The notes under the pieces: model-generated
Databases searched by the model: none
What the model saw: only the letters and a program-made list of their open reading frames with translations
What the model was told of the DNA's origin: nothing
DNA from: Helcobacillus massiliensis
Lineage (GTDB): Bacteria > Actinomycetota > Actinomycetes > Actinomycetales > Dermabacteraceae
Length of the DNA: 64,000 bases
NCBI RefSeq assembly: GCF_014191425.1
Contig: NZ_JACHWP010000005.1
Span: 1-64,000, forward strand
Direction of reading: 5' to 3'
In this document: positions 34,086-38,438 of the stretch, piece by piece
Numbering within the stretch: the stretch's first letter is position 1
Layout: each line of letters opens with the position of its first letter
Position numbers and translations under genes: made by a program

Positions 34086-35406
34086 GGTAGCGGTACATCG
34101 GGTCCATCGGGTCGATCCGCTCGATCGGCATGTTCGACGTTGCGATCCGTGCCAGCAGCGGCTCCAGGTTCTCCCGGGCGCCCAGTTCGATGCCGACCAG
34201 CGCCGGCCCCTGTTCACGGTTGTTCCGCTTGATGTAGTCGAACAGGACGATGTCGTCGCCCTCGCCGAGGACCTGGTCGAGGAACCGGCGCAGCGCGCCC
34301 GGCTCCTGCGCGAACGTCACCAGGAAGTAGTGCTTCAGTCCCTCGTGCACAAGGGATCGCTCCACCACTTCGTTGTAGCGGGACACATCGTTGTTGCCAC
34401 CGGAGACCACCACCAGGATGTCCCCGTCGGCCTCCCCTTCGGGGCGGGCGGCGGCCGACGGGTCCTGCCCCTCAGCCGTTGCCTCCCCGGGGACGGCGCG
34501 GGTGGCGACCGCGGTGGCCGCCAGCGCACCCGCGGGCTCCGCGATGATGCCCTCCACCTGGTACAGGTTCAGCATCTCGGTGCAGACAGCGCCCTCTTCG
34601 ATCGCGATCAGCTCCGGTGCGATTCGGTCCACCAGCTCCAGGTTGGCGCGGCCGGCGCGGCGCACCGCGGCGCCGTCGATGAACGAGTCGATCTCCGCGA
34701 GGGTGACCGGCTTGCCCTGCCGCACCGCGGTCGCCATCGACACGGCACCGGCGGGCTCCACCCCGACGAGGCGGACCGACGGCATGCGCTCCCGCAGCCA
34801 CGCGCCGGTACCGGCGATCAGACCGCCGCCGCCGACGGGCACCACGACAGTGCCGATCTCGCTGCCGAACTGCTCGCGGGCCTGCGCGACTGCTTCGCGC
34901 ACCACCGTGCCCTGACCGGTGATGACAGTCGGGTCGTCGAACGGCGGCACCATCGTGGCGCCGGTGCGCTCCGCATCGGTGTGGGCGGCCTCAGCGGCGT
35001 CGTCGAACGTGTCACCGGTGAGGACCAGCTGCACCCATTCGCCGCCGATGGCGAGGATGCGCTCCCGCTTCTGCTTCGGGGTGCGGGTGGGGACGTAGAT
35101 GCGGCCCTGGATCTTCAGCCGGTTGCAGGCGAACGCCACGCCCTGCGCATGATTGCCGGCGCTGGCTGTCACCACACCGGCGGTCCGCTGTTCCGGCTCG
35201 AGGCCCGCGACGAACAGGTAGGCGCCGCGGATCTTGTAGGAGCGCACCGACTGCAGGTCCTCCCGCTTGAGGAACACGTTGCGGCCCGCGATCTCCGAGA
35301 GCCGATGGGAGCGCTCCAGCGGGGTGCGGCGGACGACTCCGGTGAGGATCTCCGCGGCCTGGTCGATAGCGTCCGCGGTGACGTCGGCGGGGGATTCGAT
35401 TCTCAC
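34078..35406 (-). CDS. ilvA: Threonine ammonia-lyase (threonine dehydratase)
   Basis: PLP enzyme converting threonine to 2-oxobutanoate, first step to isoleucine. 442 residues. PLP lysine in [24 protein letters not shown], the glycine loop [11 protein letters not shown] and SGGNND match the type II family. A single C-terminal ACT-like region ([20 protein letters not shown]) gives the short, corynebacterial-type architecture. An Ala/Gly/Glu-rich insertion of about 25 residues ([20 protein letters not shown]) is unusual. Its start is coupled to the ispF stop (ATGA overlap at 35403-35406). Confidence 0.93.
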
Positions 35407-35897
35407 GGGGTGCCTCCTTCGGGCAGGACGAGGGCGGTGGCGACGGCGGCGACGCCCTCGCCGCGGCCGGTGAGGCCGAGCCCGTCCGTGGTGGTGCCGG
35501 CGATGGACACGGGTGCGCCGAGCGCTTCGCTCAGCACCTCGGTCATCTCCTGCCGACGGGGCGCCAGCTTCGGTCGGTTACCGATCACCTGCACGGACGC
35601 GTTGAGGATCTCGAAGCCGGCGGCGCGGACCCGGCGGGCGGCTTCGCGGACGAGGCGCTGCCCGGAGGCGCCGGCGAACTCCGGGTCATCGGTGCCGAAG
35701 TTGGAGCCGAGGTCGCCGATGCCGGCGGCGGAGAACACGGCATCGCAGACGGCGTGGGCGGCGACGTCCGCATCCGAATGGCCCACGAGGCCGACTTCGC
35801 CCTCGAAGAGGACACCGCCGATCCACAGGGGACGGTCGGAATCGGGAGCGGCGAAGGCGTGCACGTCCGTGCCGATGCCGATGCGCGGGTGGGCCAT
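35403..35897 (-). CDS. ispF: 2-C-methyl-D-erythritol 2,4-cyclodiphosphate synthase
   Basis: MEP isoprenoid pathway enzyme, trimeric, Zn-dependent. 164 residues with the metal site GIGTDVHAF, the second His in [17 protein letters not shown] and [14 protein letters not shown], and C-terminal [17 protein letters not shown]. The stop overlaps ilvA. In many actinobacteria ispF follows carD-ispD; here an EIIB-like gene, an inverted ispD and an ispD-like gene lie between carD and ispF. Confidence 0.94.
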
Positions 35898-35936: not shown

Positions 35937-36227
35937 CTAGGCGGCGCCGTGCGCCCGGATCAGATCGACCAGCGAATCGATGACGTGGTCGGAACCGGTG
36001 CCCAGCAGCAGCGGCATCCCGGACACGACCGGGATCCCGAGTGATTCGGGCAGCTCCACGGTGGAGACCACGATGTCCGCGCTGAAATAGGGGGAGAGAA
36101 GGTCCATCACGGTGGCCTGACGGACACGGGCGGCGATGTCCCGTTCGGCCAGGCAACGGCGGACCTCCTGGGTCAGGCGCACCGAGGTGGCGACACCGGA
36201 TCCCCCGACAATGGCAATCGTGAGCAA
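35937..36227 (-). CDS. GatB-like PTS EIIB domain protein lacking the phospho-cysteine
   Basis: About 97 residues. It aligns along its length with galactitol-type EIIB: start LTIAIVGGSGVATSVRLTQE corresponds to VACGGAVATS, and IPVVSGMPLLLGTGSDHV to the IPLVHGMP region. The position of the phosphorylated Cys is Gly (ATT GTC GGG GGA), so it should not pass phosphate. No EIIA or EIIC gene is nearby. The start is uncertain: TTG 36227 fits the fold; the frame stays open to 36323. TAGGGT at 36291-36296 may be its promoter. Confidence 0.7.
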   Translation of the reverse strand: MLTIAIVGGSGVATSVRLTQEVRRCLAERDIAARVRQATVMDLLSPYFSADIVVSTVELPESLGIPVVSGMPLLLGTGSDHVIDSLVDLIRAHGAA

Positions 36228-36366
36228 CAGGGTTCTTTCGCGAAGCGTGGACGTGGCAGTGGAGCGCTGTGGTTCTCCCCACCCTATGACACTGTGTGAA
36301 CCGGCGCGAGTGGACCCGACCACGTGCGCCCACCGCTGCGGCCCGCCTCTGGATGCGCTCGCCGCC

Positions 36367-36378: not shown

Positions 36379-37170
36379 GTGAGTGACCACCGCCCCGCTG
36401 CTGCGCCTGCCCCGAGCCCACCTGTTCGCGGCGGCGCTGACCGGCCCCTCGCCGCCGGAGTGGTCCTCGCCGGCGGCAGCGGGTCCCGCTTCGGCGCCGG
36501 CATCAACAAGGCATTCCTCACCCTCGCGCACCGCAGCATCGCCAGCTGGTCCCTGCTCTCGATGGCGGCGGTGGACGGCATCGGCCCCCTCGTGTTCGTG
36601 GTCCGCCCCGAAGACCGCGACCACGCCGAGCACACGGTGGCCCGCGAACTGGGGGAGCGGCGTGTGGAGATCATCGGCGGCGGCGCCACCCGCCAGGAGT
36701 CCGAGCTGCAGGCGCTGCGCCACCTCGCGGACCGCATCGAGAGCGGCGCGGTGGACACCGTGCTGATCCATGACGCCGCCCGGCCGCTCGTCTCCCGCGG
36801 CCTCATCGCCACGGTCCTGCGCACGGCGCGCCGCCACGGCGGGGCGCTGCCCGGATTCCATGCGGACGACATCGCGGCGCTCGCACCGAGCGACGGCGCG
36901 GACCGGCTCGCCGCCGAGCAGCCGTTGGGCGACCTGATCCGGGTGCAGACCCCGCAGGGCTTCCGTGCCGATGCGCTCCTGGAGGCCTACGAAGCAGCGG
37001 CCCGCGACGGGTTCGCCGGCACCGACACCGCCTCCTGCATCGAGCGGTACACCACCACCCCCGTGCAGTGGGTGCGCGGGGAAGCGGAGAACTTCAAGAT
37101 CACGTTCGCGCAGGACCTCGCGCTCGCCACCGACGTGGTGCGCGCCCACGGACTCGCCCCCGGCCGCTGA
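36379..37170 (+). CDS. ispD: 2-C-methyl-D-erythritol 4-phosphate cytidylyltransferase (canonical)
   Basis: MEP pathway enzyme that forms CDP-methylerythritol from CTP. 263 residues with the full nucleotide-binding signature GVVLAGGSGSRFGAGINKAF, GGATRQESELQAL, LIHDAARPLVS, IRVQTPQGFRADALLEAY and the C-terminal GEAENFKITFAQDLALA. A Pro/Ala-rich N-terminal extension of about 25 residues precedes it. GTG 36379 is chosen from the -10 spacing. It is opposite in orientation to carD and ispF, so has been relocated or inverted relative to the usual carD-ispD-ispF order. Confidence 0.92.
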   Translation: MSDHRPAAAPAPSPPVRGGADRPLAAGVVLAGGSGSRFGAGINKAFLTLAHRSIASWSLLSMAAVDGIGPLVFVVRPEDRDHAEHTVARELGERRVEIIGGGATRQESELQALRHLADRIESGAVDTVLIHDAARPLVSRGLIATVLRTARRHGGALPGFHADDIAALAPSDGADRLAAEQPLGDLIRVQTPQGFRADALLEAYEAAARDGFAGTDTASCIERYTTTPVQWVRGEAENFKITFAQDLALATDVVRAHGLAPGR

Positions 37171-37224: not shown

Positions 37225-37920
37225 TCAGGCGGGCCGACGGGGCCCGGACGTGTCACGGGCCAGCCCCAGCGCGATCTGCGCACGCCACAGGGACAGCTCA
37301 TCGGTCATCGGCTCACCCGCATGGGAGCCGTCCACGACCACCACGTCAGCGCCGATCGCCTGCATCTCCCGCACCGCCGACTGCGTGGTCCACTCATGCT
37401 CCAGCGCCCGCTCCAGCAGATGCAGATCCACCACGATCGGGGACTGCAGAGCGGTCAGCGACGCCCGCTCGATATTGGTCAGCTGGTCGCCCCGCACGCT
37501 CTTCACCGAATCCGTCACCGGGATCCCCGGCACCGCACAGACGGCGCCGTCGCGCCACGCCTGCACAACGGAGCGGACCGTCGCCTCGGTGGTGAGGGGA
37601 CGGCCCGCGTCATGCAGCAGGACTCCGTCGGCCCCCTGCCGGCGCGCCCACTGAGCGAGCGCGCGGCAGACGTCCTGCGGGTGAGCGGTCGCGGCGGCCA
37701 GCGCCGCCGTCCCCGCGATCTCGGCGTGGTCACTGCTCGCACGGCCGGGGGCGGCCGTGATCAGGCCGACGCGGCCGCCGGCGACCGACGGATCCACCAC
37801 GCTGTCCAGGGAGCGCACGGCCCGCTGGACAAGCGACATCCCGCCCAGGATGCGCCCTCCGGGAACGTCGGAGGAGTCAGCGCTCGCGGCGCTGACGGCA
37901 CATGCCAGACGGGATGTCAT
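37225..37920 (-). CDS. Degenerate IspD-like protein downstream of carD
   Basis: 231 residues, related to IspD by GVLLHDAGRPLTTEATVRSV and VCAVPGIPVTDSVKSV, but the N-terminal CTP-binding loop is replaced by ACAVSAASADSSDVPGGRIL, and the TPQxF and NxKxT motifs are gone (LQSPIVVDLHLLERAL instead). It starts 17 nt after carD on the same strand, the classical ispD position. Catalysis seems unlikely; a regulatory or other nucleotidyl-transfer role is open. The reading frame is intact, so it is not an obvious pseudogene. Confidence 0.8.
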   Translation of the reverse strand: MTSRLACAVSAASADSSDVPGGRILGGMSLVQRAVRSLDSVVDPSVAGGRVGLITAAPGRASSDHAEIAGTAALAAATAHPQDVCRALAQWARRQGADGVLLHDAGRPLTTEATVRSVVQAWRDGAVCAVPGIPVTDSVKSVRGDQLTNIERASLTALQSPIVVDLHLLERALEHEWTTQSAVREMQAIGADVVVVDGSHAGEPMTDELSLWRAQIALGLARDTSGPRRPA

Positions 37921-37937: not shown

Positions 37938-38438
37938 TCAGGATGCGAGGACCTCGTCGAGGATCTCGTCAGCGCGCTCCTGGTCGACGTCCTCGGCGAG
38001 CGCGAGCTCGCTGGTGAGGATCTGGCGAGCCTTGGAGAGCATGCGCTTCTCACCGGCGGACAGGCCGCGATCCTGGTCGCGGCGCCACAGATCGCGGACG
38101 ACCTCGGCGACCTTCTTGATGTCACCGCTCGCCAGCTTCTCAACATTCGCCTTGTACCGGCGGGACCAGTTGGTCGGCTCCTCAGTGTGCGGCTGACGGA
38201 GGACATCGAAGACCTCCTCGAGACCCTTCTTGTCCACGACATCGCGGACACCCACGAGCTCAGCGTTCTCCGCCGGAACCTCGATGGTGAGGTCGCCCTG
38301 CGCCACCTTCAGCTTGAGGTAGGTGCGCTCGACGCCCTTGATGGTGCGCTGGTTGACCTCTTCGATCAGAGCAGCGCCGTGGTGTGGGTACACAACGGTC
38401 TCGCCCACAGAGAAATTCATGTCATCGGCCCCTTTCAT
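37938..38438 (-). CDS. carD: CarD-family transcriptional regulator
   Basis: RNA polymerase-binding factor that stabilises the open complex, acting at many promoters including rRNA. 166 residues. RNAP-interaction domain [39 protein letters not shown], then the helical DNA-binding domain with [55 protein letters not shown]. Start ATG 38438 (MKGADDMNF) lies 7 nt after TAGGAT (38446-38451, minus strand), a leaderless start; ATG 38420 with an AAGGGG site is an alternative. Confidence 0.94.

Follow-up and report, generated by a model that had tools for sequence, protein, structure and literature searches.

IspD is essential where the 2-C-methyl-erythritol phosphate (MEP) pathway is the sole isoprenoid route, and the enzyme is a drug and herbicide target. 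According to crystal-structure work from 2001, T140 and R157 of the Escherichia coli protein are reportedly supplied by the opposite subunit. A review and structure papers treat IspD as a homodimer (PMC11770629, PMC5099578, PMC11796317). They describe a beta-arm that joins the two subunits and bears the MEP site, with MEP reportedly held by Arg157 and Lys213 (PMC11770629), and assign the active site to the dimer interface (PMC11796317), the major part of which is formed in the Bacillus subtilis dimer by the beta-meander and a lesser part by the C-terminal helix (PMC5099578). Residues 140-160 are further reported to form a hook that interlocks with that of a second IspD molecule (PMC11895467), and Thr140 of the E. 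coli enzyme to be in contact with the erythritol moiety; in Francisella IspD the exchange T141D lowered the activity by 75%, while T141E left none (PMC3111433). A search of the open-access literature yielded no paper on a heterodimeric or split IspD.

Heteromeric prenyl-transfer enzymes with one non-catalytic subunit are known from DHDDS-NgBR cis-prenyltransferase, in which NgBR supplies residues to the active site of its partner, and from the large and small subunits of plant geranyl diphosphate synthase. In these systems, as in the case proposed here, a homodimeric ancestor gave rise to a heterodimer of an active and an inactive homologue; they differ, however, in being eukaryotic and in having unrelated folds and reactions, and the relation is one of analogy, not of membership.

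Here, we analysed a 64,000-nucleotide stretch of the Helcobacillus massiliensis genome (family Dermabacteraceae; the window), which encodes two IspD-like proteins next to each other. We propose that the two are very probably one enzyme, an IspD that is an obligate heterodimer and has a single, composite active site. Both share the fold of homodimeric IspD as known from E. coli (YgbP) and Mycobacterium tuberculosis (Z 25.3 for both models) and, judged from gene content, take the same pathway position as a pair. The CTP-site residues of the homodimeric enzyme are found in one window subunit and its arm motif in the other. In contrast to the homodimer, the functions are divided between two genes that differ in ancestry, and only one complete active site per dimer is possible.

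Results

Two dissimilar IspD copies in the window

The features of the locus are collected in Table 1. In agreement with the original prediction, which had been made from the sequence alone, the frames place a degenerate IspD copy, referred to as the donor in the following, 17 nt after carD, and its resemblance to IspD is evident from the motifs HDAGRPL (as part of HDAGRPLTT), PVTDSVK and DSVKSV and from a score of 55 bits against the Pfam IspD model (cut-off 27). This match is confined to model positions 79-219, and the score against TIGR00453 amounts to 63.5 bits, below the curated cut-off of 181.3. The alignment likewise agrees with the predicted absence of the CTP-binding loop, TPQxF and NxKxT; QSPIV stands at the TPQxF site, and the equivalent of S88 (E. 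coli numbering) is missing as well. A C-terminal stretch, SLWQAQISLGLARDT, is conserved in the donor, and the Pfam score, the match of its structural model and a modelled hairpin assign it to the IspD superfamily fold with a beta-arm. When the window was searched with a regular expression for the donor arm, the donor was the only match; the expression misses the true donors of G303 and G367, both of which were recovered via the IspD model.

The other copy, referred to as the catalytic copy, is convergent with the donor gene and scores 146 bits against Pfam IspD, 161 bits against TIGR00453 (curated cut-off 181.3) and 90.5 bits against the D-ribitol-5-phosphate model NF001183, the latter again under the curated cut-off (166). 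It had been predicted as a canonical IspD on the opposite strand. Its position and its identity as an IspD hold, but the term canonical does not apply to a protein that stays below the TIGR00453 cut-off and has lost T140, K142 and R157. The GTG start at 36379 is the one picked in the original prediction, and the conserved region of the protein starts about 20 residues later. A third complete IspD in the genome was considered and rejected, as the sole further match of the IspD model is, by its frame, GlmU, which we take to be its correct name.

A small lone PTS IIB-like protein is encoded between the catalytic copy and ispF (35937-36323, minus strand). It matches Pfam PTS_IIB weakly and the galactitol IIB model with 28.5 bits (cut-off 95), and of the 30 family loci with a catalytic copy, 26 contain a relative detected by BLAST.

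Table 1 Features of the two-gene IspD locus and its neighbours
Feature	Position	Strand	Remarks
ispF, MEP-pathway gene after the pair	35403..35897	-	profile matches
IspD catalytic subunit, complete CTP site, arm motif lost	36379..37170	+	263 aa, start codon uncertain
CTP-binding loop of the catalytic subunit, residues 28-47, LAGGSGSRFGAGINKA	36460..36519	+	R20 and K27 equivalents in 30/30
Arm segment of the catalytic subunit, T140, K142 and R157 lacking, approximately residues 161-186, varies among species	36859..36936	+	alignment; low-confidence coil in the model
Donor: degenerate IspD, proposed non-catalytic arm-donor subunit	37225..37920	-	231 aa, 17 nt after carD
Beta-arm hairpin of the donor, residues 128-158	37447..37539	-	invariant columns 30/30; modelled strands 128-143 and 146-158
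carD, upstream neighbour of the donor	37938..38438	-	frame and profile match

The two copies have lost complementary parts of the enzyme

For each copy, 30 orthologues from the Dermabacteraceae were aligned; the alignment also contained 30 single IspDs that represent other families of this order, together with the IspDs of E. coli and Mycobacterium smegmatis (residue numbers are those of E. coli). All 30 single IspDs have R20, K27, T165, K213, T140, K/R142 and R157. The catalytic copy retains R20, K27, D106, R109, T165 and K213 in every orthologue, while T140 is found in none, K142 in one and an aligned R157 in seven, the last of these sitting in a loop of unsure alignment. Among the donors, K27 and K213 are absent throughout and R20 and T165 are left in one orthologue each, whereas D139, S140, V141, K142 and R157 occur in 30/30; in the window protein these arm positions are covered by T136-D137-S138-V139-K140, equivalent to E. 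coli 138-142, and by R152, equivalent to R157, all invariant in the 30 orthologues. What the catalytic copy has lost, namely the arm, is what the donor keeps. D106 (28/30) and R109 (29/30) also persist in the family donors, neither of which is required by the model proposed below.

The same picture emerged from sequence identities: the mean pairwise identity of the arm is 0.38 in the catalytic copy, the other blocks of which reach 0.70-0.96, compared to 0.68 in the donor, where the CTP loop drops to 0.44. The median dN/dS of the catalytic copy is 0.20 (274 pairs). For positions conserved in the outgroup, Fisher's test gave a mixed outcome: the catalytic copy showed significant loss within the arm (p = 0.02); retention of such positions in the donor arm was not significant (p = 0.66), mainly because T140 became serine.

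AlphaFold2 was run on the two window proteins as single chains. The donor model, with an overall mean pLDDT of 84.6, contains a confident arm hairpin, while residues 167-185 of the catalytic model form a low-confidence coil with block means of approximately 53-63 and no long strands, at an overall mean of 80.6. Both models match IspD structures over almost the full chain (214 residues of the donor model align to 2xwn_A), and the shared fold was never in doubt. The whole-chain comparison does not by itself test the arm, and it did not reveal that the catalytic copy lacks one.

Both copies follow the MEP pathway

Brachybacterium is described as a genus that mixes MEP species and mevalonate species (PMC13001223). 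Our family sample comprised 47 Dermabacteraceae genomes, mostly from this genus. Dxr was found in 31 of them, the catalytic copy in 30 and the donor in 30, and the union of the latter two sets is exactly the 31 Dxr genomes. Both copies were seen in 29 genomes; the remaining two, G062 and G068, show one copy each at a place where the contig ends. IspF is present in 30 genomes, all within the Dxr set, with G062 as the exception. From the 16 genomes without Dxr, both IspD copies and IspF are absent without exception, and HMG-CoA synthase is present in all 16. Dxr and IspF are both encoded in the window's own genome, in which HMG-CoA synthase was not found. As donor loss tracks Dxr loss, the donor is retained in exactly those genomes that have to make CDP-ME.

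Three genomes (G009, G026 and G066) carry Dxr together with HMG-CoA synthase and hence show signs of both isoprenoid routes.

Probable descent of the donor from the resident IspD

The family tree was calculated from an alignment stripped of the arm columns. It places the donors within ordinary Micrococcales IspDs (97/96), whereas the catalytic copies stand outside. A recent duplication of one IspD into two was rejected on these grounds, with the catalytic clade outside the clade of outgroup plus donors (97/96). The phylogeny proposed for both proteins in the original prediction showed their separate ancestry, and the description of the second copy as a displaced canonical IspD is inaccurate: it is the carD-linked copy that groups with Micrococcales IspDs, the supposed original forming a separate clade. 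The donor also occupies the ancestral gene position. In the family tree the catalytic copy is placed beside ribitol-type proteins (92/83), a grouping that was not recovered in the larger tree.

The wider tree unites 27 arm-less copies from eight families in one clade (96/99), while seven full-length donors from outside the family appear in three places, near the IspDs of their own lineages. A single origin of all donors, with these seven forced into one clade, was rejected (p-AU = 0.005). This pattern suggests that a resident IspD has been demoted repeatedly and independently, for which the evidence from the trees is moderate as the donors are long branches.

Beyond the family, the donor often adjoins ispF, not carD. 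In 7/11 ispF-matched loci the two genes share a strand, and the distance from the end of the donor to ispF ranges from an overlap of 4 nt to a gap of 20 nt. The strands of the donor and the catalytic gene are opposite in 17/17 loci outside the family and also in the 28 family genomes with both genes on one locus.

Arm-less IspDs and their partners in the phylum

Searching 396 genomes of the phylum with a profile of the catalytic copy revealed close relatives in other families. The best 29 matches outside the window's genome comprise 20 arm-less and 9 arm-bearing proteins, and with G398 added, 21 arm-less genomes were available. All 21 encode a second, arm-bearing IspD relative. In 16 of them this partner is a short or eroded protein within approximately 8 kb of the catalytic gene; in four (G197, G172, G224 and G352) it has an eroded CTP loop and lies on a separate contig in a carD-X-ispF position; and in G183 it is a fully intact carD-linked IspD, which could work alone, the arm-less copy of this genome having an aligned R157. 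Within one class, sampled with 34 genomes (at least 90% completeness requested), a donor was found in 15/15 genomes with an arm-less IspD and, among the matches listed, in 0/19 genomes with an arm-bearing one. The order of the window's species added nine arm-less genomes from two families, with a donor near carD in 9/9, and 40 additional IspD-type proteins with low scores, taken from the order sample as a control, all keep T/S140 and R157. In total, 62 genomes with an arm-less IspD were collected, 30 of them Dermabacteraceae and 32 from elsewhere in the phylum. A partner was seen in 61, including 32/32 outside the family, the only exception being G068 with its contig end. Alanine at position 140 is frequent in donors of other families, including the smallest ones; the hydroxyl group of threonine is thus not provided in every case.

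Seven proteins without T/S140, K213 and R109 (G206b, G377b, G473b, G049c, G077b, G107b and G146b) were not counted as arm-less, nor was G123b, which is devoid of T/S140, keeps R157 and carries HDGVRP. The loci L186 (G206), L192 (G377), L194 (G473), L197 (G049), L199 (G077), L203 (G107) and L207 (G146) represent a family of IspD-like paralogues in which HQAANP or DAAHP replaces HDAARP and K213 is missing. A stop codon is located inside the second copy of G038. At L182 (G367), two reading frames together cover the arm-less catalytic gene, the arm donor being intact, which reflects either a sequencing error or decay. The same convergent pair occurs at L143 (G538) and L144 (G228), in complete genomes of genus g62 (family f22, same class), and no other complete IspD was found in either genome.

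Discussion

The two genes show complementary losses, occur together, disappear together with the MEP pathway, are linked and have separate ancestries. We infer that their products pair physically, with the donor arm oriented towards the catalytic subunit and activity only when both subunits are present. In this arrangement, the catalytic subunit would bind CTP and Mg and perform the chemistry, its arm segment having lost the residues that hold MEP. The donor subunit would be the descendant of the resident carD-linked IspD, deprived of its own CTP site, and its beta-arm, with S138, K140 and R152 in the places of E. coli T140, K142 and R157, would hook into the catalytic subunit and complete the MEP site. 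Each dimer would then contain one composite active site in place of the usual two. Lending an arm that the catalytic subunit has lost would explain the survival of a gene that looks broken.

But, what else could keep a degenerate IspD at this place? The original prediction offered a regulatory function, i.e. a pseudoenzyme that tunes flux via the catalytic IspD, the MEP site of which would then be complete by other means. Linkage to carD, a transcription factor, and the pseudoenzyme-like loss of the CTP site fit such a function, as does the co-occurrence, which any partner role would produce. We nevertheless regard it as improbable: a regulator would have no need to retain precisely the motif of the arm lost by the catalytic copy, which is found in 30/30 family donors and every partner found outside the family, and in other families the donor is often located beside ispF instead of carD. 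Regulation found no specific support and is not needed either, because the conserved part is the beta-arm that the catalytic partner has lost; an arm completing the active site explains more. Less credible still is a functionless, decaying remnant of a replaced gene. Donor orthologues do diverge fast (26-42% identity within Dermabacteraceae) and have lost catalytic residues, but the frame, the intactness of which had been read as a sign of retention, is intact in 30/30 orthologues without decay in close relatives, the median dN/dS of 0.35 (18 pairs) indicates purifying selection, and the arm is invariant. Together with the exact co-loss with the MEP pathway, these data already contradict pseudogene decay, which we rejected, and support the retention of the donor in evolution.

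Equally remote is the idea that the second copy is, like TarI, responsible for another CDP-polyol and that the carD-linked copy is still the IspD despite its losses. TarI, a ribitol-5-phosphate cytidylyltransferase, belongs to the same superfamily and is placed closest to the catalytic copy in the family tree, and not in the larger one. Against this stand the missing R20, K27, S88 and K213 of the carD-linked copy and the exact agreement of the second copy with Dxr (31/31 versus 0/16). Moreover, the MEP pathway is absent in genomes that have ribitol-type proteins alone; unlike the catalytic copy, the ribitol-type proteins of the Dermabacteraceae keep T140 and R157 (9/9) and do not follow the pathway.

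Beyond the heterodimer itself, we lean slightly towards a broader scenario, in which an arm-less IspD lineage would have spread through the phylum and, several times and independently, the host's essential IspD would have become its non-catalytic arm donor, reduced in some lineages to approximately 170-190 residues with little beyond the arm. The genomes would then preserve a stepwise record from an essential homodimer to an obligate heterodimer, with G183 near its start and arm-only proteins at its end.

If the two proteins indeed form one enzyme, the annotation of isoprenoid pathways in these bacteria would change, as both window genes score under the curated IspD cut-off, and the catalytic chain expressed alone may appear inactive. 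The pairs would also provide a natural series for the splitting of a homodimer's active site between two genes, and they raise a testable general question: does repeated capture of a resident homologue drive the origin of pseudoenzyme subunits?
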